NCBI RefSeq assembly: GCF_000787815.1
Contig: NZ_BBPO01000030.1
Span: 29,756-91,409 of the forward strand
Direction of reading: 5' to 3'
Length of the DNA stretch: 61,654 nucleotides
Source: Streptacidiphilus neutrinimicus
GTDB taxonomy: Bacteria > Actinomycetota > Actinomycetes > Streptomycetales > Streptomycetaceae
The notes beneath the pieces are model-generated. The model saw nothing but the letters and a program-made list of their open reading frames with translations. It was not told the DNA's origin and made no database searches. Below are positions 34,401-48,341 of the stretch, in pieces; within the stretch, counting starts at the first letter, position 1; each line of letters starts with the position of its first letter. The position numbers and the translations under genes are program-made.

Positions 34401-35216
34401 TCAGGAGTGGGCCGGCCGGACGGCCGGCAGGTCGGCGCGCAGTTCCTGTACGACTGCGGCCAGGTGGGGGACGAGGAAGAAGTGGCCGCCCGGGTACGAA
34501 CGCAGGCGGAAGGCGCCGGTGGTGTGCGTGCGCCAGGCCTGTGCCTGCGGCTCGTCGACCCGCGGGTCGACGTCGCCGATCAGCGCGGTGACCGGGCAGT
34601 CCAGGGGGGCCGCGCCGCGGAACCGGTAGGTCTCGGTGGCCACGTAGTCGCTGCGCACGGCGGGCAGGATCGCGGCCAGCAGCTCCGGGTGGTCGAGCAT
34701 CCGCTCGTCCGTGCCGCCGAGCAGCTTGATGTCCGCGATGAGCCGGGCGTCGTCGGCGCGGTGGACCGCGCCCGGCGCCGGGATCGAGGGGGCGCGGCGG
34801 CCCGAGACGGCGAGGGCCGCGGGCGGGTGGCCGGCGTCACGGAGCCGGCAGGCGACCTCGAAGGCGAGGGAGGCGCCCATGCTGTGCCCGAAGACCGAGA
34901 AGGGGCGGTCCAGCAGCGGCGCCGTCCCGTCGCACAGCGCGGCGGCCACCAGGTCGGCCAGCTCGTGCAGCGACTCCACGCACGGCTCGCCGAAACGTTC
35001 CTGACGGCCCGGATACTGCACCACCAGTACGTCCGCGTGCTCGGCCAGCGCGGCCGAGAGGGGGAAGAAGTAGGAGGCGTTGCCGCCCGCGTGCGGCAGG
35101 ACCAGCAGGCGCGGGGCGTCGTCCGGGGCGGTGTGGAAGCGGCGCAGCCACGGCGTGCCGGTCGGCGCGACGGGCGCCGCCCTGCGGGGCCCGGACAGGT
35201 CGGAGAGGACCGTCAT
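34401..35216 (-). CDS. Type II thioesterase (alpha/beta hydrolase), copy 1
   Basis: 271 aa from ATG 35216, overlapping the stop of the P450 gene (ATGA). Typical NRPS/PKS editing thioesterase: LLVLPHAGGNASYFFPLSAA at the N-terminus, QYPGRQERFGEP, nucleophile in FGHSMGASLAFE, Asp in IGDVDPRVD and His in SYPGGHFFLVPH. Such enzymes clear mis-acylated carrier proteins or release intermediates. A second one lies at 50960-51724; two in one cluster may mean that one has a dedicated release role, perhaps with the stand-alone A-PCP protein or the orphan PCPs. Confidence 0.9.
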   Translation of the reverse strand: MTVLSDLSGPRRAAPVAPTGTPWLRRFHTAPDDAPRLLVLPHAGGNASYFFPLSAALAEHADVLVVQYPGRQERFGEPCVESLHELADLVAAALCDGTAPLLDRPFSVFGHSMGASLAFEVACRLRDAGHPPAALAVSGRRAPSIPAPGAVHRADDARLIADIKLLGGTDERMLDHPELLAAILPAVRSDYVATETYRFRGAAPLDCPVTALIGDVDPRVDEPQAQAWRTHTTGAFRLRSYPGGHFFLVPHLAAVVQELRADLPAVRPAHS

Positions 35217-36772: not shown

Positions 36773-37753
36773 CTACTCCGACGCGTCCTCCAGGAAGCCG
36801 CTCCTGGCGATCAGGTAGGCGAGCTGGGCCCGGCTGCGGCTGCCGAACAGTTCGGCCGCCCAGCGCATGTGGTTGGCCACGCTGCGCGTGCTCATGCCGA
36901 GCCGGGCGGCGATCGCCTCGTCGGTGTACCCGTTCACCATGTGCCGCAGGATCGCCCGGCGCACCTCGTCGGTCAGCAGCGGGGGCAGCCGGTTGCTGGG
37001 GTAGGCGGGCATCGGCGAGGCGCGCTGCCAGGCGTGATCGAAGACGCTGACCAGGTACCGGACCACACCGGGGTGCTCGACGGCGAGCGCGATCTCGCTC
37101 CGCTCGGCGGCGGGGTCGGGGATGAACGCGATCCTGCGGTCGCAGACGATCAGCCGGTTGAAGACCTCGTCCAGCGTCCGGATCTCGCCGCCGGCCTGCA
37201 CGATCCGTTCCGCGTAGGTGAGCGTGGGCTGGTGTGAGCGGACCATGTGCTGATAGATCGTCCGTTGGGCGACTCCCCGTTCCAGCGCGGCCAGATCGCT
37301 GGTGAGCGCCTTGTCCAGCAGCTCCTGGGGACGTTGGCCTCCCGGCTGGGCTGTCAGGAGCTCTTCCTGGCAGGCGTGCACGGCCGCGGAGAGGGTCGCG
37401 CTGATCGCGCTGGAGCCCTGCACCACGCGGATCAGCCCGGAGTCCCCCTTGCCGTAGCTGTCCAGGTAGATCTCCTGCGCCTTGGCGATGGAGGCGCGCA
37501 GGGTGCCGAGCGAGCTCCGCTTCTCCTCGATGGCGCGCTCCAGCCGGTCCATCTCCGCGCCTCCGGCCAGCCGGGGCGGGATCGGGGCCAGGCTGCCGTC
37601 CGGCAGGTGCTGAACGAGCCCCAGGTCGAGCAGACAGGAGGGGCAGTCGCCCGACCTCACCCGGCCCTGCAGGGCGTCCGAGTAGTACTGGAGCCCGTCC
37701 GCGCAGATCTCGACGGGTCTGTGTTCACCCCGACTGTCCGAACTCGCACACAT
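36773..37753 (-). CDS. LuxR-type (C-terminal HTH) pathway regulator paired with the DSQWG peptide
   Basis: 326 aa from ATG 37753, which has AAGGTGG upstream; longer starts (37789, 37897) would run into the peptide promoter and have no properly spaced site. The C-terminal ~60 residues are a LuxR/GerE helix-turn-helix (LTDEVRRAILRHMVNGYTDE, then AIAARLGMSTRSVANHMRWA). The N-terminus has several cysteines (CASS, EICADG, GDCPSC) and a helical region without receiver, ATPase or autoinducer-domain signatures. It is transcribed divergently from the exported peptide gene 152 bp away, so the likely role is peptide-responsive control of the cluster. The ligand is inferred only from this arrangement. 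Confidence 0.85.
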   Translation of the reverse strand: MCASSDSRGEHRPVEICADGLQYYSDALQGRVRSGDCPSCLLDLGLVQHLPDGSLAPIPPRLAGGAEMDRLERAIEEKRSSLGTLRASIAKAQEIYLDSYGKGDSGLIRVVQGSSAISATLSAAVHACQEELLTAQPGGQRPQELLDKALTSDLAALERGVAQRTIYQHMVRSHQPTLTYAERIVQAGGEIRTLDEVFNRLIVCDRRIAFIPDPAAERSEIALAVEHPGVVRYLVSVFDHAWQRASPMPAYPSNRLPPLLTDEVRRAILRHMVNGYTDEAIAARLGMSTRSVANHMRWAAELFGSRSRAQLAYLIARSGFLEDASE

Positions 37754-37905
37754 ATTTCCACCTTGCTGGTTGTCGCATTGCAGGATCATCCTCCTCGATC
37801 GACGAGACCTGGTGTACACGCAGCAAGCATGATTTCGAGCGGGGAACCGACCACGAATTTCCGCACCAACCAATTGCCCGAACCACGAAGAAGGCAAGGT
37901 AAGAG
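37754..37905. promoter_or_regulatory. Divergent promoter region between regulator and peptide genes
   Basis: 152 bp, distinctly richer in A+T than its surroundings. A dyad CTTGCTG (37762-37768) and CAGCAAG (37821-37827) flanks a central TCGATCGA palindrome at about 37796. These are plausible operator pieces for the LuxR-type protein, but the match is short. The purine-rich stretch at 37889-37900 is the ribosome site of the peptide gene. Confidence 0.5.
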
Positions 37906-38133
37906 ATGTTTCAGCACGTTTCCAAGCGCCATCTGGCCGCTCTTGCTCTCTCGCTCCTGATCGCCACCGGATTCACCGCCGCTGTCGAGAGCGGCAAGCC
38001 GGCCACCGCCGTAGCCGACTCCCAGTGGGGAGCGACCCCGGGCACCACGGCCACCACGTCCACCACGGTCCAGGCCGACTCGGCCGCGGCCCCCGTGGCC
38101 CCCGCGGGCCCGGTCGACTCCCAGTGGGGCTGA
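37906..38133 (+). CDS. Exported small peptide precursor with two DSQWG motifs (candidate signal peptide)
   Basis: 75 aa. The N-terminus is a Sec signal: basic MFQHVSKRH, hydrophobic LAALALSLLIATGF, and an A-x-A site (AVA, residues 35-37). Cleavage there would release a 38-residue peptide that begins with DSQWG (residues 38-42) and ends with DSQWG (71-75) at the very C-terminus, joined by an Ala/Thr/Pro/Val-rich linker. The two motifs share a 15-base identical repeat (38016-38030 and 38115-38129). It has no cysteines, no lanthipeptide or lasso maturation gene nearby, and no similarity to carrier or MbtH proteins. Divergent from a LuxR-type regulator and upstream of the NRPS operon, it looks like a precursor of a secreted signalling peptide. 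Function is inferred. Confidence 0.8.
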   Translation: MFQHVSKRHLAALALSLLIATGFTAAVESGKPATAVADSQWGATPGTTATTSTTVQADSAAAPVAPAGPVDSQWG

Positions 38134-38301
38134 GTCTCCTCCCGAGCCCCTGCCGAGCCTGACCCCCTTCTGAGCCGGCTCGTCGTATCCGTGGCCCACG
38201 AGGCCTGACGCGAGCGGCCGCGCGACCGCCCCTGAGGATCCGGGGCCCGTCTCCCGCACCCCCTTTCCACAAACCTGTCCCAGCCTTCCGGAGGTCCTCT
38301 C
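38134..38301. other. Gap between the peptide gene and the NRPS operon
   Basis: 168 bp without a gene. I see no clean terminator, so the NRPS operon may be read through from the peptide promoter or have its own promoter here. CGGAGGT at 38289-38295 is the ribosome site for the GTG start at 38302. Confidence 0.4.
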
Positions 38302-39918
38302 GTGCTGCCCGCAGAGACGCACGCTCCGTCACCAGACGGATACACCTGGTATCCAGCCACCCGGGTGCAACAGGGCATCTGGGTCCTGGACCGCGACCAG
38401 GTGCTGCGTCCCACCCAGTTGGTCCCCACGGTCGTCGAGTTCGCCGGCCGCGTGGACCACCCGGCGCTGACTGCGGCGGTCGGACACGCGCTCCGCCGTC
38501 ATCCGTCGCTGCGGGCCCGGTTCCGGCTCGACGTCAAACGGCGCCGGGTCGAGTACCACACCGACGGCCCACCGGCCGAGCCGGTCCTCCTCGACGCCGA
38601 GGTCGAGGGCTGGACCGAGGACCAGGTCGACGACCGGGTCCGGAGCCTGTGCACCGCGCCCTTCGACCTCGCCCGGGACGCGCCCGCGCGGGCCGAGGTG
38701 ATCCGCCTGTCGGCGGAGCGGACCCTGCTCGTCCTGAACGTGCATCACATCATCTTCGACGGCGTCTCCCGCGGCATGCTCCTGGAGGATGTCTGCGCCC
38801 TCTACCGGGCGGCCGTCGCCGGCGTCGCCCCCGAGTTGAGCAGCCCGCCGCACCCGGCGTCGGTCGTCGCCGACCGCACCCCGGAGGTGATCGCCGAGCA
38901 GGTCGCCGAGGTCGTCGACCGGCTCCGCGGCGCCCCGACCGGGATCCACCTCCCGCTCGCCCGCACCCCGGACGTGGGGCCCGAGGAGTCCCTGCTCGGC
39001 GCCTCCGCCCAGGTCTCGATCGACCCGGAGACCACCGCCCGGGTGATGGCGGTGGCGGCCCGGGAGGGCTGCACCCCCTTCATGGTGGGGGTCGCCCTGC
39101 TCGCCGCGACGCTCGCCCGCACGGGGCCGCAGCGCGACTTCCTGATCGCCTTCGCCTGGCCGGGCCGCGACGATCCCGCCACCGCCGAGGTGATCGGGAT
39201 GTTCATGACCACGGTCGTGCTCCGCGCCGCCGTCGGCCCCGAGGACACCTGGCACGACCTGCTCGCCGGCGTACGTCTCGGCGGCATGGAGGCCTTCGTC
39301 GACAGCGACGTGCCGCTCGACGCGGTGTCAGCCGCGCTCAACCCCGACCGCAACGCCCTGTGGCCACCCCTCTCCCCGGTCCTGGTCAACCTCGACGAGG
39401 CGCCGCGGACGGTGGAGCTGGCGGCCGGGGCTACCGGCCGACTCCGGCCGCTGGACCCGATGTTCATCAAGTACGACCTGGCCCTGTTCGTCCGCCTGGA
39501 GGACGCGCCCGACGGGCGTCGCCTCGCACTGTCCCTGGACTACCCGGTCCACGTGTTCGACACCGGCGACGTCCACCGCTTCCTCGACGCTCTGCGGCGC
39601 AGCGCCGCGGACCTCGCTACCTTCCCGGAGAGAATCGTGCTCGAAGAGTCCACCACCCTCACCGCCCCGGCCGTCGACCTGGACGACCCCGCCGCCCGCC
39701 TGGAGCTCGTCCGCTCCATCTGGCGCGAGGTACTGGACACCGACGACGTGGCCGACGACGTCAGCTTCTTCGAGTCCGGCGGCGACTCGCTGCTGCTGGT
39801 CCTGCTGGTGGAGCGCCTCGGCCAGGCCTCGGGCCGCGAGGTACGGACCATGGACCTGTTCCGCTCCCCGACCGTCAGCGCCCAGGCCGGTCTGATCGCG
39901 GGAGAGGCCACCCGATGA
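38302..39918 (+). CDS. NRPS protein, condensation domain plus PCP (no adenylation domain)
   Basis: 538 aa from GTG 38302 with CGGAGGT upstream. A condensation domain spans about residues 15-440, with the active HHIIFDG motif at 148-154. A PCP lies near the C-terminus with phosphopantetheine Ser in FFESGGDSLLLVLL. There is no adenylation domain, so the PCP must be loaded in trans or receive an acyl or aminoacyl group from another station. Its stop overlaps the next start (ATGA), and the next protein begins with a second PCP. The pair of adjacent orphan PCPs is unusual and suggests docking of trans-acting enzymes such as the stand-alone A-PCP protein or the P450s. Confidence 0.92.
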   Translation: MLPAETHAPSPDGYTWYPATRVQQGIWVLDRDQVLRPTQLVPTVVEFAGRVDHPALTAAVGHALRRHPSLRARFRLDVKRRRVEYHTDGPPAEPVLLDAEVEGWTEDQVDDRVRSLCTAPFDLARDAPARAEVIRLSAERTLLVLNVHHIIFDGVSRGMLLEDVCALYRAAVAGVAPELSSPPHPASVVADRTPEVIAEQVAEVVDRLRGAPTGIHLPLARTPDVGPEESLLGASAQVSIDPETTARVMAVAAREGCTPFMVGVALLAATLARTGPQRDFLIAFAWPGRDDPATAEVIGMFMTTVVLRAAVGPEDTWHDLLAGVRLGGMEAFVDSDVPLDAVSAALNPDRNALWPPLSPVLVNLDEAPRTVELAAGATGRLRPLDPMFIKYDLALFVRLEDAPDGRRLALSLDYPVHVFDTGDVHRFLDALRRSAADLATFPERIVLEESTTLTAPAVDLDDPAARLELVRSIWREVLDTDDVADDVSFFESGGDSLLLVLLVERLGQASGREVRTMDLFRSPTVSAQAGLIAGEATR

Positions 39919-42900
39919 CCGCCACCGTCCACTCGCTCGCCGCCCGGATCCTGGAACTCCCGGACACCCCGGACGTCTTCGGCGAAGACAGCTTCATCGC
40001 CCTCGGCGGCGACTCGCTGCGCGCGATGCGCCTCGTCGCGGTCCTCCAGGAGGACCTCGGACTGCGCGTGGCCGTCATGGACCTGCTCGGCGACGCCCCG
40101 CTCGCCCGGGTACTCGACGGCGCCACCCCCGTCGCCCCCGAGGTACCCGAGGGCACGGCCGAGCTCGACGAGCGCGCCGCCGAGCAGCCGCTCACCCCCG
40201 CCCAGCGCGGCATGTGGCTGATCGAGCGCGTCGCCGGCGGCTCCCCGTACAACCTCGTCTTCCGCTGCTTCACCCAGGGCGGCCGACTCGACCGCGAGCT
40301 GCTCGCCAAGGCCGTCGCCGAAACGGTCGCCCGTCACGAGGGGCTGCGGACCGTGGTCCGCGAGACCGCGGACGACGTGGTGCAGGAGATCCTGCCCGCC
40401 TACACCCCCGAGCTCGTCGAGTACCCCTACGACGGCCAGGCCGAGGCGTTCGAGAGCACCGTGCGCCGCCAGGGCGCCGAGCTCGGCCGGGAGCCCTTCG
40501 ACCTCGCCGCCGCCCCCGCGTACCGGTTCGCCTACTGGAACGGGCCGGACGAGCGCAGCGCCCTCGTCCTCGCGGCGCACCACATGGTCCTCGACGGCCA
40601 CGCGGTGGGCCAGTTGCTGCAGGAGGTCTTCGGGACGTACGCGGCGCTCAACGCCGCGGCCGACCGCGCCGCGCTGCTGGGCGCCGGCACGCCGCTGTCG
40701 GCGCTGCGCCGGTACCAGCAGGCGGCCCGCGACCGCGGCGCCTGGGACGAGCAGACCGAGTTCTGGCGCACCCGGCTCGACGGGGCGCCGACCGTCCTCG
40801 ACCTCCCCGCCGACCGGCAGCGTCCCACCGTGCAGAACGGCGCGGGTGACCGCGTCGGACTCGACCTGGGCCCGGACGTCACCGACCACGTCGCCGCGCA
40901 GGCCCGCGCGTTCGGCATCACGCCGTACGCCTTCCTGCTGGGCGCCTTCGGGCTGACCCTGGCCCGCCGCACCGGCGTCCGCAGCCTGCTGGTGGGCGTA
41001 CCCCTGCTCGGCCGCGGCACCTCCGAGCTGCGCGGCCTGATCGCCGTCTCGGGCAACCTGGTACCGGTCCGCGTGGACGTGGACGACGACGTCGACGTGG
41101 CGACCTACCTGCGCGGGGTGCACGCCTCGCTCGCCGCCGCAATCGACGCGGGCGACCTGCCCTTCGAGGAGCTCGTCGCCCGGCTGGGCGTCGAGCGCAG
41201 CCTGAGCTGCCACCCCTTGGTCCAGGTCTGCTTCGGCATGCACGACCAGCTGGTACCCAGGGAGCTGACCGCCGGTCGGCTGCGGGTCCAGATCGAGGAG
41301 GGCCACGGCGGCGGCTCGCAGTTCGACCTGACCATGCTGGTCGGCCAGGCCGACCCGTCCTACGCCGGGCACCTCGAGTACGCGACCAGCGTCTGGCGCC
41401 GGTCCGAGACCGAGGCCTTCGTCGCCGACTTCCGCGCCACCGTCGGCGAGCTCGCACAGGCCGGCGAGACCCGCCTCGAGGACGTACGCGGCATCTCCGG
41501 TGAGGCCAGGGCGCTGCTCGACGAGGTCAACGAGAGCGGCCTGGACTTCCCGGACACCTCGCTCGACGCGCTCTTCCGCGAGGCGGCCGCGCTCACGCCG
41601 GACGCCGTCGCGGTACGCGACGGCTCGCACACCCTGACCTACGGTCAGCTGGCCGACGCGGCGGCCGAGCAGGCCCGCCTGCTGACCGCCGCGGGCGTAC
41701 GGCCGGGCGACCGGGTCGTGGTGGGCGTCGAGCGTTCGGTGGCCGAGGCCGTCGCCGTCCTCGGCGTGACCTGGGCCGGCGCCGCGTACGTGGGCCTCGA
41801 CCCGGAGCTTCCCGAGAGCCACCTGGTCAAGCTGCTGGACCGGGCCCGGCCCGCCGCCGCCCTGGTCGGCGCCGTCGACGGCCCGGCGGCCGGGCGCTTC
41901 GCCGGCCTCGGCGTACCTGCCGTGGCGACCTGGCGGCCCGACTGGGAGCCGGTACCGGCCGGCACCGTGCCGACGGCGCCCGCCGACCCGGCGCGCCTGG
42001 CCTACGTGGCCTTCACGTCCGGCTCGACCGGCCAGCCCAAGGGCGTCTGCGTACCCCACCGCGCCGTCATCCGGCTGATCCACGAGGCCGGATACGTACG
42101 GCTGGGCAAGGGCGAGCGCATGCTGCGGCTCGCGCCGCTCTCCTTCGACGCCTCCACCCTGGAGCTGTGGGGCGCCCTGCTCACCGGCGCCTCCCTGGAG
42201 GTGCACCCGGCCGGTCTCGCCTCCCCGACCGAGCTGGGGGCGTTCCTTAAGGAGCGCGGGATCACCGTGGCCTGGCTGACCGCCGGACTCTTCCGGCTGG
42301 TCGAGGAGTTCGCCCCGGACTCGCTGCGCGGCCTGCACCAGCTGCTCACCGGCGGCGACGTCGTCCCGCACGAGCACACCGCCCGGGTCCTGTCCCGGCA
42401 CCCCGGCATCGTCATCACCAACGGCTACGGCCCGACCGAGAACACCACGTTCACCACCACCCACTCGGTGCTTCGCGCCGAGGACGTGGACGGTCCGCTG
42501 CCGATCGGCCGCCCGGTTCCAGGCACCCGCGTGTACGTCCTGGACGCCCGCCGGCGTCTGCTCCCGCCCGGCGCGGTCGGCGAGCTCTACACCGGCGGAG
42601 CCGGGCTCGCCGACGGCTACCTCGGCGACGAGGCGGAGACGGCCCGTGTGTTCGGCCACCTCTCCCCGGACGTACCGGAGCGCCTGTACCGCACCGGGGA
42701 CCTGGTGCGGATCGACGCCAAGGGTCGGCTGCACTTCCTCGGCCGGGCCGACGACCAGGTCAAACTGCGCGGCTACCGGGTCGAGTTGAGCGCGATCAGC
42801 GACGTGCTGAGCGAGCACCCCGAGGTCCAGGACGCCGTGGTGACGGTGACCGACGGGGGCGGCGCGGACAAGCGCCTGGTCGCCGCGGTGGTGCTCGTAC

Positions 42901-43355
42901 CCGAGGCCGCTGTCGACGCGGTCGCGCTGCGGGACCTGCTGGCGGAGAAGCTGCCGTCGTACATGATCCCCAACCTGTGGGCCGTGGTGGACCGGCTGCC
43001 GGTCACCGCCAACGGCAAGGTGGACCGGCGGGCACTGGCCGCCGTGGCCGGTCCGGCCCGGCGCTCCGCCGCCGCGCCGTCCGCGCCGGAGCCGGCCCCG
43101 GCGGTCGTGGCCGTGGAGCGCGTCGCCGCGCTGTTCGCCGCCGTCATCGAGGGCGACCCGGTCGGCGACGTCGTCGAGGACACCGACTTCTTCATGATCG
43201 GCGGCAACTCCCTCGGCGCCGTGCGCCTCATGCGCAAGGTCAAGGAGGAGCTGGGCGCGAACGTACGCCTGCGGGAGTTCCTGCTGGCGCCCACCCCCGG
43301 CGGACTGATCGCGCTGATCGAGAAGGCGCTCGTCGAGAAGGCCGCCCACCGATGA
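39915..43355 (+). CDS. NRPS protein, PCP-C-A-PCP, valine-like adenylation code
   Basis: 1146 aa. Order: PCP (Ser34 in FIALGGDSLRAM), condensation (HHMVLDG near residue 220), adenylation (about 540-1045) and PCP (FFMIGGNSLGAVRL). A-domain motifs are intact: TSGSTGQPKG, FDASTLELWG, NGYGPTENT, YRTGD, and Lys in NGKVDRR. The specificity residues read by eye are D-A-L-W-L-G-G-T-F-K, closest to the known valine code DAFWIGGTFK. No epimerase, methyltransferase or TE domain, and no MbtH-like gene in the cluster. Coupled by ATGA overlaps to the genes on both sides; the PKS two genes downstream should extend its product. Confidence 0.92.
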   Translation: MTATVHSLAARILELPDTPDVFGEDSFIALGGDSLRAMRLVAVLQEDLGLRVAVMDLLGDAPLARVLDGATPVAPEVPEGTAELDERAAEQPLTPAQRGMWLIERVAGGSPYNLVFRCFTQGGRLDRELLAKAVAETVARHEGLRTVVRETADDVVQEILPAYTPELVEYPYDGQAEAFESTVRRQGAELGREPFDLAAAPAYRFAYWNGPDERSALVLAAHHMVLDGHAVGQLLQEVFGTYAALNAAADRAALLGAGTPLSALRRYQQAARDRGAWDEQTEFWRTRLDGAPTVLDLPADRQRPTVQNGAGDRVGLDLGPDVTDHVAAQARAFGITPYAFLLGAFGLTLARRTGVRSLLVGVPLLGRGTSELRGLIAVSGNLVPVRVDVDDDVDVATYLRGVHASLAAAIDAGDLPFEELVARLGVERSLSCHPLVQVCFGMHDQLVPRELTAGRLRVQIEEGHGGGSQFDLTMLVGQADPSYAGHLEYATSVWRRSETEAFVADFRATVGELAQAGETRLEDVRGISGEARALLDEVNESGLDFPDTSLDALFREAAALTPDAVAVRDGSHTLTYGQLADAAAEQARLLTAAGVRPGDRVVVGVERSVAEAVAVLGVTWAGAAYVGLDPELPESHLVKLLDRARPAAALVGAVDGPAAGRFAGLGVPAVATWRPDWEPVPAGTVPTAPADPARLAYVAFTSGSTGQPKGVCVPHRAVIRLIHEAGYVRLGKGERMLRLAPLSFDASTLELWGALLTGASLEVHPAGLASPTELGAFLKERGITVAWLTAGLFRLVEEFAPDSLRGLHQLLTGGDVVPHEHTARVLSRHPGIVITNGYGPTENTTFTTTHSVLRAEDVDGPLPIGRPVPGTRVYVLDARRRLLPPGAVGELYTGGAGLADGYLGDEAETARVFGHLSPDVPERLYRTGDLVRIDAKGRLHFLGRADDQVKLRGYRVELSAISDVLSEHPEVQDAVVTVTDGGGADKRLVAAVVLVPEAAVDAVALRDLLAEKLPSYMIPNLWAVVDRLPVTANGKVDRRALAAVAGPARRSAAAPSAPEPAPAVVAVERVAALFAAVIEGDPVGDVVEDTDFFMIGGNSLGAVRLMRKVKEELGANVRLREFLLAPTPGGLIALIEKALVEKAAHR

Positions 43356-44554
43356 CCCGCACCGCCGCACCGGTCCCGCCGTCGTCCCTGGTGGACGACG
43401 TGCGGGCGCCGGAGTGGGACGAGGGCCTGGACTGCTGGGTCGTGGCCGACCCCCGGCTGGCACAGCAGGTCCTCAACCACCCCGGCTTCGCCTCGGGGAC
43501 CTTCGAGCGCTCCTTCCAGCTCTACATGACGGACGTGGCGCGGGCCGAGTACCGCGAGCTCACCGAGTTCCTGCGGCTCTGGTTCGTCCAGGCCGACGCC
43601 CCCGAGCACTCCGCGCTGCGCCGCCCGGTGCAGCGCATGCTCTCCCCCTCCTACATCCGGTCGCTCGCGCCGCACATCGAACAGATCACGGACGAGTGCC
43701 TGACCGAACTCGCCGCGACCCGCCCGCAGGACGTCATGCCGACCGTGGCGGAGGGCGTCTCGGGGCGGGTGATGGCGCACATCGTCGGCGTCGACGTCCC
43801 GCCGCCCGTGCTGCACCACTGGTCCCGGACGCTGTCGCTGTTCATCGGCGCCATGTACCGCAGGGACCACGCGCAGGCCGCCCACCAGGTGATGGTGGAG
43901 ATGTCCGAGGCGCTCACCGGCGCACGGGCGTTGGAGGGCTTCCCCACCGACACCCCCGCCGACCGGGCCAGGACCATCGCGACCTGGGCCATGTGTCTCT
44001 TCGGCGGGCTGGAGACCACCGCCTCGCTGCTCGGCTCGACCGTCCTGACCGCCCTCGGCGACCGGGAGGTGTGGTCGGGCGTCCGGAGCGAGACGGCCGG
44101 TGCGCGGTCCGGCGCGGTGGCCGGTCTGGTCGAGTCGGTCCTGGTCACCCGCCCGCCGCTGCGGCATCTCGGCCGCGTGGTCGCCCACGACCAGGAGTTC
44201 GCCGGGGCCCGGCTGCGCGAGGGCGACCTGGTGCTGGTGAGCCTCACCGGCCAGGGGCCTCTCGACGAGGCCGCCGAGCCGGACGCCGCCGTCTGCCCGG
44301 TGACGGGTGCGAGCGCGGCTCCGGCCGTGACGCCGGCCGTGACCTCGGGCGGCGAGCGGAACCTCGTCTTCGGCCACGGGCCGCACTACTGCGTCGGCGC
44401 TCCGCTGGCCCGGCTGGAGGCCGCCATCCTGCTCCGCCGGCTGGCCGCACGGTTCCCCGACGCCCGGCTCTCCGAGGAGGCCACGGTCTGGGGTCCCAAC
44501 CTCAGCTACGTCGGTCTCGACCACCTCTACGTCGATCTGGGCGGAGAAATCTGA
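43352..44554 (+). CDS. Cytochrome P450, copy 2, lacking the ExxR motif
   Basis: 400 aa from ATG 43352. The heme loop FGHGPHYCVGAPLARLE is intact (Cys347) and the I-helix MCLFGGLETTASLL has the normal acid-Thr pair. The K-helix is abnormal: where most bacterial P450s read EELLR, this one reads ESVLV (residues 261-265), so both Glu and Arg of ExxR are gone. ExxR loss is rare (known for example in the CYP157 family). The protein is otherwise complete, so it is probably a functional but unusual enzyme or a catalytically altered binding protein. It lies between the NRPS and PKS genes, coupled to both. Confidence 0.88.
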   Translation: MTRTAAPVPPSSLVDDVRAPEWDEGLDCWVVADPRLAQQVLNHPGFASGTFERSFQLYMTDVARAEYRELTEFLRLWFVQADAPEHSALRRPVQRMLSPSYIRSLAPHIEQITDECLTELAATRPQDVMPTVAEGVSGRVMAHIVGVDVPPPVLHHWSRTLSLFIGAMYRRDHAQAAHQVMVEMSEALTGARALEGFPTDTPADRARTIATWAMCLFGGLETTASLLGSTVLTALGDREVWSGVRSETAGARSGAVAGLVESVLVTRPPLRHLGRVVAHDQEFAGARLREGDLVLVSLTGQGPLDEAAEPDAAVCPVTGASAAPAVTPAVTSGGERNLVFGHGPHYCVGAPLARLEAAILLRRLAARFPDARLSEEATVWGPNLSYVGLDHLYVDLGGEI

Positions 44555-44555
44555 C

Positions 44556-47500
44556 ATGGCCCTCTCTCTTGTCGAGGGCGAACGGGCCGGGAGCGCGACT
44601 CCCGACCCGTCCGCCGACCACGCCGTCGCCGTCGTCGGCATGGCCTGCCGGCTGCCCGGCGCGCCCGACGTCCGCGCCTTCCGGGCGATGCTGCGCGACG
44701 GCCGCGACGGCATCAGCCGCCTCAGCCGTGAGGAGGTGCTGCGGCGCGGAGCGGACCCGGCGTACACGGGCCGGGAGAACTTCGTGGCGGCCATGGGCGT
44801 CATCGAGGACTCCGGGCGCTTCGACTGGTCCTTCTTCCGGTACAGCCGGGCGGAGGCCGCGGCGATGGATCCGCAGCAGCGGGTCTTCCTGGAGTGCGCG
44901 GCGACCGCGGTCGACGACGCCGGTCTCGATCCGATCCGGTTCCCCGGCCGCGTGGGCGTGTTCGCCGGCGCCGACCGCTCGGGGCCGGGCCGGGACGACT
45001 CCTCGCTGGGCGAGCTGGCGCGGTACATCGGCAGGGAGAAGGACTTCGTCGCCACCCGCGTGGCGTACAAGCTGGGCCTGCGCGGGCCCGCACTCACGGT
45101 GCAGACCGCCTGCTCCACCTCGCTGACGGCGGTTCACCTCGCGGTGCGCGCGCTGCGGTCCGGCGACTGCGACGCGGCCCTGGCGGGCGGGGTCACCGTG
45201 ATGCCGGCCGGGGAGTGGGGCTACCTGTTCGAGCCCGGCGGCATCCTCGCCCCGGACGGGCACTGCCGCCCGTTCGACGCCCGGTCCGCGGGGACCGTGC
45301 CGAGCGAGGGCGTCGGCGTGGTCGTCCTCAAGCGCCTCGCCGACGCCGTGCGCGACGGCGACCGGATCGCCGCCGTCATCGCCGGCACCGCGCTCAACAA
45401 CGACGGCGCGGAGAAGATGGCCTACACCGCGCCCTCCGCCGCCGGGCAGAGCGAGGTCATCCGCGCCGCCCTGGAGGACGCGGGACTGTCCGCCGCCTCC
45501 GTCGGTCACGTGGAGGCCCACGGAACGGCCACGCAACTCGGCGACCCGATCGAGGTGCAGGCCCTCACCGAGGTCTACGGCACCGTCGGCCGGCAGACCG
45601 GCTGGTGCGCGCTGGGCGCGGTCAAGGGCCAGGTCGGGCACACCGGCGCCGCCGCCGGGGTGACCGGTCTGATCAAGACGGTCCTGATGCTGGAGCATCG
45701 CGAGATCTACCCGACGGCCCACTACACCGAGCCCAACCCGTTGCTGGAGCTGGAGCGTTCGCCGTTCAAGGTGGCGCAGGCGCTGGTGCCGTGGGAGCTG
45801 CCGGAGGGCCGGTCCAGACGCGTCGGCGCGGTCAGCTCGTTCGGCGTCGGCGGCACCAACGCCCACGTGGTGCTGACCGAGGCCCCCGACGCGGCGCGGA
45901 CCCGTCGTCCGGCCGCGGTCGCCCAGCCCGTCCCTCACCTGCTGCCTCTGTCGGCCCACAGCCCGGCCGCGCTGGCCCGCCTGGCCGGCACCCTGGCGGA
46001 CCGCTTCGCCGAGTCCGACGCGCCGGAACTCGACGCGGCCGCCGTGACCCTGGCCGGCCGCCGGGTCCACCCGCACCGGCGGACCGCCGTCGTGCCCGAC
46101 GCCGCCCGCGCCGCCGAGGCGCTGCGCGCGGCCGGCGCCGCGGCCGAACGGCTGGACGCCACAAGCCGGTTGGGCAAGGTGGCCTTCCTCTTCCCGGGGC
46201 AGGGAACGCTCAAGGACGCCGCGGGCGAGGCGGCGTACCGGCTGCTGCCCGAGTTCCGCGCGGCCTTCGACGAGATCCGTACGATCGCCCGCCACGACTG
46301 CCGCGTCGATCTGGGCCTGGTGATCACCCCGGCCGTGCCCGAGGGACCGGACGGCGGCGACGACTGGTACGCGGACACCGTGCACCAGCAGCTCGGCCTC
46401 TTCGCCCTCGGCTACGCCTTCGGCCGTCAGCTGGCCGCCTGGGGCGTCGTCCCGCACGCGATGCTCGGCAACAGCGTCGGCGAGTACGCCGCCGCGGCCC
46501 TCGCCGGGGTCTGGGAGCTGCGTGACGCCGTCGTCCTGGTCCACCGGAGAGCCGTCGCGATGCGCGACGCGGCTCCCGGGCGGATGGCCGCGGTCGAGGC
46601 CGACCCCGCCGAGATCGAGGCCCGGCTGCCTGCCGACTGCGGCGTCACGGTGGCGGTCCGCGGCAACGGGTCCGCGGTGCTCTCGGGCCCCGAGGCCGCC
46701 ATGGACTCCCTCCTCGCGGGTGAGGCGCTCACCGGACTGCGCGTCACACCCGTCCACACCCGGCGAGCCTTCCACTCGCCGTCCATGAGCCCGGCAGCCG
46801 AGGCGGTGCGGGACCATCTGTCGTCGATGCCCGCCCGCCCGTCACGGCTGCCGTACATCTCCAACACCTCGGGTGACTGGGTCGACCCCGAGGCCGCGGC
46901 CACGCCCGGCCACTGGGCCGCGCACCTGCGCGAGCCGGTACGGCTGGACGCAGGCACCGCCACCCTGCTGACGGCCGGCTGCACCACGTACCTGGAGCTG
47001 GGCCCCGGCGGATCGATGGCCGGCGCGCTGCGCCGTGCCCCCGGCTGGGACCCGCGGCAGCTGACCGTCCGGCTCGCCCCCGGCGCCCGTGGTGACGTCG
47101 ACGCCGAGGCCGGGCTGCTCGGCGCGCTCGGCACGCTGTGGGAACTCGGCGTCGACCCCGCGCTGGCGGCCGTCCTGACGGCCCGGCACCCCGACCCCGA
47201 GGACCGGCCCGGCCGCTGCTCGCTGCCGGCGCACCCGTTCCTCGGCGAGGAGCCGGAGGCGCTCGGCGAGAGCCGGAGCCCGCAGCCGGTCCGTGTCGCC
47301 GCGCCGCCGGAGCGCGCGGCGACCGTCCGACCCCAGGCGAGCGGCCGCCCGTCCGCCTCGGTGCGACCGGGCGGCGCGCTGCGCGCGGTTCTCGCGGAGG
47401 TCTGGTGCCAGACCCTCGGCGTCCCGGACGTCACCGACGAGGACGACTTCTTCGGCCTCGGCGGCGAGTCGCTGCTCTGCATCGCGCTCGCCACCGCAGT

Positions 47501-48341
47501 CCGTGAGCGCGTCGGCGCGGAGATCTCGGTCACCGACTTCACGCTGAAGGGCACCTTCGCCGGGCTCGTCCAGCTCGTCGCGGACCGGCTGCCCGGCCAG
47601 GACGGCCACGCCACGGTGACGCCCCCCGGCGTGGCCACGCTGCGGGAGGGCGCCGGGCGACCGGTCTTCCTCCTGGCGGACGCCGTCGGCACCGCCCTGC
47701 CCTACCAGGACCTGGCCGCCCGGCTCAGGCTCCCCGACGACCGCCCGCTGCTGGCCCTGGAACGGGCAGCCCACGTCGGCGGGACCCTCCGGGAGCTCGC
47801 CGCCGCGCAGGCGCGCACCCTGCTGCGGGTCCAGCCGGCCGGTCCGGTCACCCTCGGCGGCTGGTCCTTCGGCGCCGTGGTGGCCCAGCAGACCGCGCGC
47901 CTGCTGATGCGCCTGGGCCGGGAGGTGGACCTGCTGCTCCTCCTCGACGGCTACGTACCCGACAGCCGGCCGCTGCCGGTCGCCGGCGCACCGGACTTCC
48001 TGCTGGGCGGGGTGCGCGCCGGGTTCGACGCCCTGTTCGGCCGGGGACCGGTGGGCGGTGCTCTGCGCCGCGCGCCCCGGGCGCGCGGGCGGTTCCTCGG
48101 CGGCCAGGCCGCCGTGCTGACCTACCGGCCCGACCCGGTGTTCTGCCCGACCGTGCTCCTCAAGGCGGACGCGGACGAGGCGTCGGTCGCCCGGCTTGCG
48201 CACCGCCTCGCCGGGCTCTACCCCGCGGGCCTCCGGGTGGTCCCGGTGGCCGGCGACCACTGGTCGATGCTCCGGCACCCCCACGTCGACGAGCTGGCCG
48301 CCCATGTCGAAGAAGCGATCAAGGAGAGGAAGGTTTCATGA
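44556..48341 (+). CDS. Type I PKS module KS-AT-ACP-TE
   Basis: 1261 aa. KS about residues 22-440 with Cys186 (QTACSTSL), His in EAHGTAT and His in VGHTGAAAG. AT about 540-860, opening FLFPGQG, with Ser640 in GNSVGEYAAA: the usual GHS is GNS. The RAFHS segment resembles the xAFH motif of malonyl-CoA-selecting ATs. ACP with Ser972 (GLGGESLLC). C-terminal thioesterase with Ser1104 (GGWSFGAV) and His in GDHWSML. No KR, DH, ER or MT domain, so one malonate-type extension of the NRPS chain and release is predicted; keto reduction would need the SDR or AKR in trans. Confidence 0.93.
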   Translation: MALSLVEGERAGSATPDPSADHAVAVVGMACRLPGAPDVRAFRAMLRDGRDGISRLSREEVLRRGADPAYTGRENFVAAMGVIEDSGRFDWSFFRYSRAEAAAMDPQQRVFLECAATAVDDAGLDPIRFPGRVGVFAGADRSGPGRDDSSLGELARYIGREKDFVATRVAYKLGLRGPALTVQTACSTSLTAVHLAVRALRSGDCDAALAGGVTVMPAGEWGYLFEPGGILAPDGHCRPFDARSAGTVPSEGVGVVVLKRLADAVRDGDRIAAVIAGTALNNDGAEKMAYTAPSAAGQSEVIRAALEDAGLSAASVGHVEAHGTATQLGDPIEVQALTEVYGTVGRQTGWCALGAVKGQVGHTGAAAGVTGLIKTVLMLEHREIYPTAHYTEPNPLLELERSPFKVAQALVPWELPEGRSRRVGAVSSFGVGGTNAHVVLTEAPDAARTRRPAAVAQPVPHLLPLSAHSPAALARLAGTLADRFAESDAPELDAAAVTLAGRRVHPHRRTAVVPDAARAAEALRAAGAAAERLDATSRLGKVAFLFPGQGTLKDAAGEAAYRLLPEFRAAFDEIRTIARHDCRVDLGLVITPAVPEGPDGGDDWYADTVHQQLGLFALGYAFGRQLAAWGVVPHAMLGNSVGEYAAAALAGVWELRDAVVLVHRRAVAMRDAAPGRMAAVEADPAEIEARLPADCGVTVAVRGNGSAVLSGPEAAMDSLLAGEALTGLRVTPVHTRRAFHSPSMSPAAEAVRDHLSSMPARPSRLPYISNTSGDWVDPEAAATPGHWAAHLREPVRLDAGTATLLTAGCTTYLELGPGGSMAGALRRAPGWDPRQLTVRLAPGARGDVDAEAGLLGALGTLWELGVDPALAAVLTARHPDPEDRPGRCSLPAHPFLGEEPEALGESRSPQPVRVAAPPERAATVRPQASGRPSASVRPGGALRAVLAEVWCQTLGVPDVTDEDDFFGLGGESLLCIALATAVRERVGAEISVTDFTLKGTFAGLVQLVADRLPGQDGHATVTPPGVATLREGAGRPVFLLADAVGTALPYQDLAARLRLPDDRPLLALERAAHVGGTLRELAAAQARTLLRVQPAGPVTLGGWSFGAVVAQQTARLLMRLGREVDLLLLLDGYVPDSRPLPVAGAPDFLLGGVRAGFDALFGRGPVGGALRRAPRARGRFLGGQAAVLTYRPDPVFCPTVLLKADADEASVARLAHRLAGLYPAGLRVVPVAGDHWSMLRHPHVDELAAHVEEAIKERKVS

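Follow-up and report, generated by a model that had tools for sequence, protein, structure and literature searches.

Comparative analyses indicate that a small gene in a 61,654-nucleotide stretch of the Streptacidiphilus neutrinimicus genome (hereafter, the window) probably encodes a Phr-like pro-pheromone, of a type that often carries several motif copies, and that its DxxW(+1) peptide is probably recognised by a TrmBL2-like regulator bearing a LuxR-type helix-turn-helix (HTH). A preliminary description of the window had proposed that a secreted peptide acts as a signal read by this regulator. Sequence comparison strongly supports that proposal, through the pairing of precursor and regulator genes in relatives, the identity of motif copies within precursors, the synonymous-only change of the motif codons and the recovery of the pairs in a motif-first search, together with a modest co-change of motif and regulator. 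On a wider scale, the evidence leans towards a large, unnamed family of oligopeptide pheromones in the Streptomycetaceae, with precursors carrying 1-10 private [DE]xxW copies and with divergent TrmBL2-like/LuxR sensors, one clade of which would be widespread in Streptomyces, and with portable pairs that would switch unrelated antibiotic-type operons.

The precursor gene, its regulator and the biosynthetic cluster

The precursor gene (positions 37906-38133, plus strand) encodes 75 residues, in the order of a basic start, a hydrophobic segment, ATAVA, DSQWG, a 28-residue spacer, a second DSQWG and the stop, and is preceded by a Shine-Dalgarno-like stretch, AAGGCAAGGTAAGAG. The predicted Sec-type signal (residues 1-37; 37906-38016, plus strand), which was called by eye and from hydropathy, ends in ATAVA, such that D38 of the first DSQWG copy (38017-38031) comes right after ...TAVA, immediately past the predicted cleavage site. 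The second copy (38116-38130) makes up the last five residues before the stop, an ending (DSQWG-stop) that is also present in relatives, and both copies are encoded by an exact 15-base identity, CGACTCCCAGTGGGG. The ORF with its coordinates, the repeat, the 152-bp gap to the regulator and the A-x-A site right before DSQWG were all confirmed on the sequence as first described. The mature form is, as also proposed, predicted to be 38 residues long, but the active form in general is unlikely to be this 38-mer, because the constant unit is [DE]xxW (see below). The GC content by codon position (0.66/0.64/0.86) is as in a high-GC coding frame; a minus-strand ORF over the peptide gene (37911-38429), from a crude GC3 gene caller, is disfavoured by the plus-strand conservation of the motif. 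That the window peptide is more than a chance ORF follows from conservation in relatives rather than from the single sequence. A search of its own genome with the peptide gave the self match, the next matches being at E 0.08 or worse, and the link to other precursors was thus found through the regulator; none of seven precursors, including that in the window, that were scanned with Pfam and/or NCBIfam was above a curated cut-off.

The regulator (326 residues; 36773-37753, minus strand) has a C-terminal LuxR/GerE HTH, as identified by Pfam. Its N-terminus had been described as lacking any known small-molecule domain, but it is not devoid of known domains: single-sequence Pfam matches in the N-terminal part are below threshold, and a profile of the regulator family matches TrmBL2 (PDB 5bpd), i.e. 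a winged helix and a PLD-like domain, over profile positions 7-260 (E 5.5e-11), as well as GerE/NarL-type HTHs near the C-terminal end. Neither a tetratricopeptide repeat (TPR) nor an autoinducer-binding domain is among the Pfam matches at E up to 1, the family profile giving TrmBL2 and GerE/NarL chains. AlphaFold2 prediction of the regulator with six relatives gave a poor model (pLDDT 56, pTM 0.27). Cysteines 17, 40, 128 and 204 are invariant in the seven nearest regulators, some in a CPxCLL-like context, and a redox or metal role for them is possible.

The divergent intergenic region (37754-37905), 152 bp long, separates the peptide gene from the start codon (ATG) of the regulator on the minus strand. 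It contains an aligned conserved block, GCATTGCAGGATCATCCT (37775-37792), which holds the imperfect palindrome AGGATCATCCT (37782-37792); all 13 aligned sequences, which comprise the window, its clade and a near relative, have ATGAnCnnGCA on the regulator strand, and 27 sequences of the other clade have a conserved intergenic block of the GCATCATGTTC type. We infer that these blocks, including that at 37775-37792, are candidate operator or promoter elements.

The peptide gene heads a putative NRPS-PKS operon, as the preliminary description had it. The next gene of this putative operon encodes an NRPS condensation-PCP protein (38302-39918, plus strand; Pfam), is called from a GTG at 38302, 168 bp past the peptide stop, and has homologues beside the pair in loci L045, L046, L048 and L206. 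It is followed by genes for an NRPS C-A-PCP protein (39915-43355, plus strand) and a PKS with KS-AT and a thioesterase-type stretch (44556-48341, plus strand), both identified by Pfam; in all, the region 3' of the peptide gene includes NRPS C-PCP, C-A-PCP, PKS KS-AT-TE, MFS, P450, thioesterase, SDR and A-PCP genes. Within the operon, positions 43352-44554 encode a 400-residue protein with no Pfam match at 1e-12, which is 83% identical to one in L206. After the regulator lie genes for a cytochrome P450 (35213-36529, minus strand) and then a thioesterase (34401-35216, minus strand), as assigned by Pfam and by comparison with relatives. There are no AfsA- or ScbR-type genes among the window genes scanned, which represent part of the window.

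Putative operons of at least three unlike kinds are headed by DSQWG pairs. One, the NRPS-PKS cluster, occurs with the pair in the window, L045/L206 and L048, and in L046 with a frameshifted peptide gene. The L202 pair heads aminotransferase, TauD dioxygenase and KAS III genes (4 of five scanned genes), and the L204 pair heads GTP cyclohydrolase II, RibD and glycosyltransferase genes (3 of five scanned genes); when the L203, L205 and L049 operons were compared with the window cluster, the regulator alone matched. In L046 the two DSQWG copies are in different frames, and the apparent frameshift may be an assembly fault or decay. The regulator is kept as an apparent orphan in L044 and L047 (9 kb each) and in L207 (19.5 kb, from the same genome as L051); no NRPS, P450 or complete thioesterase gene and no DxxW precursor was found in these stretches, with L044 retaining a 69-residue thioesterase piece. 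The NRPS-PKS cluster could sit elsewhere in these three genomes. An aldo/keto reductase gene adjoins the orphan regulator in L044 and L047.

Pairing of precursors and regulators among relatives

Within the S. neutrinimicus genome itself, four of the six regulator paralogue places that were read, with three weaker matches left out, face small exported-looking ORFs, i.e. L010 (...PGDVGWDVVPPSR), L011 (ADSVWD; ...ASADSVWDGGHMTATASR), L012 (...GDGIGWDQAP...TNGIGWD-stop) and L013 (...AVADTAHRAPVAAPATGTWG-stop, ending in TGTWG), with no such facing small ORF at L014 and L016. The L011 pair (22-934 and 1048-1263, C149) adjoins ORFs that were taken, on visual inspection, for DnaJ and HspR. An intact DSQWG precursor is present in three of six named Streptomyces relatives, i.e. 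L045 from S. tibetensis (...LADSQWG...DDSQWG-stop), L048 (...LADSQWGASAPQGGTGANDSPRG) and L049 (...FEDSQWG-stop), and regulators that are 51-61% identical (L052-L057 and L061) face precursors with a DSQWG or DSAWG end, the remainder being unlike.

For a census of such pairs, regulators were taken from 14 same-genus genomes, 394 family genomes, 394 class genomes, named relatives and plasmids; only fetched loci, that is the best-scoring matches and hand-picked ones, were used, and the sample is therefore not random. Removal of loci with <640 bp upstream or <250 residues left 209, and removal of identical proteins left 193. The rule, which was fixed after examples had been seen, called as a precursor any divergent ORF of 18-140 residues within 620 bp that had a repeated [DEG]xxW, that combined an export-type start with DxxW[GNDSTPAQ], or that had a DxxW at its C-terminus together with a Shine-Dalgarno-like stretch. 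By this rule, 90 of the 193 distinct regulators face a DxxW-type precursor (37 by the repeat, 45 by signal plus motif and 8 by the C-terminal arm), compared with 0/193 on the other strand and 0/579 for dinucleotide shuffles. L013, with its TGTWG end, fails the rule and was counted as having none. A simpler tally of D..W[GNDS] in short ORFs, made earlier on loci up to L137 minus L013, L015 and L016 (126, reduced to 88 at 80% identity), gave 40/88 versus 2/88 on the other strand, with 3/102 for downstream strands and 32/880 for shuffles.

The pairing follows the phylogeny of the regulators. On a FastTree tree the precursor label needs 27 changes, compared with a mean of 64 when shuffled, none of 500 shuffles being as low, with near-copies contributing to this value. 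One regulator clade has a precursor in 32/32 cases, and all 32 rows carry genus code g9, which we take to be Streptomyces. The 103 regulators without a precursor by the rule are clustered in particular clades, the family with code f26 having 0/11. Homologous regulators lacking a peptide gene, and loss of the DSQWG end among relatives, had been named as observations that would count against a signal. The former do occur, in these 103 cases, which are clade-clustered; three in the window clade are also without cluster genes nearby. The DSQWG end is kept beside 9 of the 14 window-clade regulators; the five that fail the rule are L044, L047 and L051 (without cluster genes nearby), L046 (frameshift) and L017, for which no precursor was found in the 4 kb read.

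Many precursors have export-type N-termini, as judged from hydropathy only, and some of 28-32 residues have little or no export signal. The precursors of L059, L062, L064, L065, L066, L067 and L071, with 29-31 residues and no clear export signal, combine variable middles with a constant C-terminal DSAWG. Among seven plasmid relatives that were opened, a DxxW precursor was evident, by the display employed, in one, L200 (DDQWG); in another, L196, an annotated divergent 43-residue ORF has DENW and no export-type start, and was excluded from the count. On Streptomyces linear plasmids, family regulators are located near ScbR-type (L195) and beta-methylarginine (L197) genes, and the L200 plasmid regulator is near AfsA/ACP/phosphopantetheinyl transferase genes. 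Arrays of two to four family regulators, one of them facing a precursor, are present in L208 (9003-12851) and in L188-L194; for the remaining regulators in these arrays the rule finds no separate precursor, and they may respond to the same peptide as the paired one.

A motif-first search, which began from the codons of DSQWG followed by TGA, with serine as TCN only, gave 7 matches in 389 family genomes, and the same pattern read backwards gave 1. Six of the seven are exported-looking precursors that are divergent from a regulator of the window family; for the seventh (L210), the 3 kb that were read contain no regulator. A scrambled motif gave 2 matches in the same genomes, again with no regulator in the 3 kb around either of them.

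Constancy of the motif and its co-change with the regulator

There are 35 precursors with 2-10 [DE]xxW copies, with that in the window being of the two-copy form and others having, for example, DVGW eight times (L110), DIAW nine times (L115), EPSW nine times (L133), DSTW ten times (L166) or DPIW four times (L126). Within precursors, all 324 pairs of copies agree in the middle dipeptide (35/35 precursors), compared with 54 of 595 pairs between precursors; the motif analysis covered 88 precursors because two of the 90 have GIGW without [DE]xxW. Identical copies are favoured by the repeat criterion, but precursors with two unlike motifs could still enter if they had an export-type start, and none of this kind was present in the census. 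Between copies, the two middle motif codons have 230 synonymous and 0 nonsynonymous differences, whereas the flanking codons have 1266 nonsynonymous and 296 synonymous differences; the copies have thus drifted, with the motif being held by selection. The fifth residue differs within some precursors (GNVSA in L127), such that the constant unit is [DE]xxW, and DxxW(+1) was adopted in place of a strict pentapeptide unit. In 20 of 88 precursors an [AVSTG]xA site immediately precedes the first motif, a weak excess over the background (448 of 3811 positions).

If the regulator reads the peptide, changes in the motif are expected to coincide with changes in the effector domain. Regulator residues 105-258 co-change with the dipeptide to an extent that was reached by 7 of 1000 random sets (174 branches, 45 dipeptide changes), and with the fifth-residue label to an extent reached by 10 of 1000. 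The signal-peptide residues, used as a control label, gave no excess (816/1000), but precursor length as a control gave 22/1000, implying that the domain-wide co-change is not fully specific; the co-change of motif and effector domain suggested by these alignments is thus modest. Residues 146-154, a segment picked after looking at the data, gave 0/1000 for the motif versus 345 and 121 of 1000 for the two controls, and as a peptide contact site this segment is only a lead.

Proposed mechanism, alternatives and relation to known systems

In the scheme that we infer for export, processing, import and binding, the product of the small gene would be exported as a pro-pheromone, from which signal peptidase and extracellular proteases would release a DSQW(G) peptide of 4-5 residues, which an oligopeptide permease would then take back into the cell; there are 12 SBP_bac_5 matches in the own genome, some of which could serve peptide import. 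On binding DSQW(G) through its PLD-like effector domain, the divergently encoded TrmBL2/LuxR regulator would switch the promoter region that the two genes share, and thereby the peptide gene together with the NRPS-PKS operon that follows, making the switch dependent on cell density. The middle residues of DxxW would set the specificity of each pair, like the variable residues of Phr pheromones.

Alternatively, the precursor may be read by the regulator and yet report on something other than cell density, such as extracellular protease activity or envelope/protein-folding stress, via the amount of DxxW released. Release would require broad proteases, since the flanking residues, and in many cases the fifth residue, vary between copies, and the L208 pair is near a ClpB-type gene, as L011 is beside the putative DnaJ and HspR ORFs; nonetheless, we consider this reading unlikely, because the identical, pair-specific middle residues within a precursor fit private signalling better and the DSQWG pairs are located on putative biosynthetic operons. 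That the precursor instead gives a secreted end product, such as a P450-modified RiPP or a small antimicrobial, which is merely co-regulated with its neighbour, appears decidedly improbable. Some P450 RiPPs use Trp-containing cores, and the window has two P450 genes, one just past the regulator; however, no RiPP enzyme family was matched among the 23 window genes scanned besides those for the peptide and regulator (3 at E up to 1 and 20 at E up to 1e-12), nor in a scan of ten genes next to the L202 and L204 pairs. The initial statement that no RiPP maturation gene is nearby is to be qualified as applying to these 23 genes, which are part of those in the window and include three, of the 20 scanned at 1e-12, with no match at all; the two P450s would be candidates for such an enzyme. 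The common partner of the precursors is, moreover, the regulator; most cases were found through it, and the motif-first search agrees.

We attach very little probability to a cis-acting leader ORF, the translation of which, e.g. via its Trp codons, would control the downstream operon with no trans-acting peptide. The peptide gene is on the same strand as, and 5' of, the NRPS gene, and there is a Trp codon in every motif, but such a role leaves unexplained the single Trp codons with variable linkers, the export-type signal and the identical residues before Trp. Chance ORFs selected by a flexible motif can in practice be set aside, for although DxxW is short and the rule postdates the examples, the census controls, the synonymous-only change and the motif-first result all stand against them.

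The preferred reading, that of a sensed DxxW(+1) peptide, may extend to a Streptomyces model strain. In L208, the only member of the 32-row clade for which neighbouring genes were scanned, a ClpB-type gene lies near the pair and additional regulators, but as the L011 regulator falls in another clade, a common ancestral locus is only a guess. In Streptomyces coelicolor we take clpB to be SCO3661 and hspR to be SCO3668, and from this gene order SCO3664 is presumably placed in the regulator family of the window. SCO3665 and SCO3666 are given as LuxR-family proteins, of 327 and 394 residues, in PMC3282765, and the mutants reported in PMC6585502 to make >50-fold more actinorhodin include one with SCO3664 ('regulator') disrupted by insertion. 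SCO3664, SCO3665 and SCO3666 would on this view be members of the family, which may touch antibiotic control in the model strain. The extracellular oligopeptide signal of S. coelicolor (BLD261) is said to enter via the BldK ABC permease (PMC11303876); as a possible relative of the DxxW peptides it is a lead only.

Many of the biosynthetic clusters of Streptomyces remain silent in culture (PMC7142297). Signals in Actinomycetota are, according to one source, typically enzyme-made small molecules (PMC10075063), and a 2016 review names gamma-butyrolactones and cyclic or modified peptides (PMC4748050). A portable linear peptide-regulator pair heading clusters would be a cheap handle, with a synthetic tetra- or pentapeptide being used to switch a cluster on, and the motif would allow sequence-based matching of peptide to regulator. 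No description of DxxW motifs or of the regulator pairing was found in open-licence PubMed Central papers, a set with preprints excluded and with few subscription papers, and from their sequences the DxxW precursors and paired regulators look like an unrecognised peptide-signal family.

The window regulator resembles the archaeal TrmB/TrmBL2 regulators, the known TrmB ligands of which are sugars, in the profile match to TrmBL2, and differs from them in having an extra C-terminal LuxR/GerE HTH. This HTH is common to the LuxR homoserine-lactone receptors, whereas their autoinducer-binding domain is absent from its Pfam matches. The gamma-butyrolactone systems (AfsA/ScbR) represent signalling attached to Streptomyces biosynthetic clusters, as is likewise proposed here, but employ an enzyme-made lactone rather than a gene-encoded peptide. 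The preliminary description would have the peptide act in place of gamma-butyrolactones; the two kinds of signal can lie close, as in the plasmid relatives near an ScbR-type (L195) or an AfsA-type (L200) gene.

A close parallel is with the Rap-Phr/RRNPP systems of Bacillota, which have a small exported precursor beside the receptor gene and a short linear peptide; with its predicted export and short peptide, the DxxW system may, by analogy, work like Rap-Phr. Some Phr precursors carry several identical repeats, according to PMC5199041; the DxxW precursors differ in that their motif is anchored by an acid and Trp and is present in up to ten copies. The RRNPP criteria given in PMC10075063 include a receptor of 250-500 residues, adjacent genes and TPRs. 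The 326-residue regulator falls within this length range and the genes are adjacent, albeit divergent, with 90/193 relatives being paired, but the regulator has no TPR match, and the DxxW system is thus not RRNPP, differing from it in its TrmBL2-like sensor with a LuxR HTH, its divergent gene order and its presence in Actinomycetota. If the proposed scheme is correct, it would represent a class of peptide quorum sensing with a non-TPR intracellular receptor, outside Bacillota, and, if binding is shown, the DxxW/regulator system would be a class of its own.
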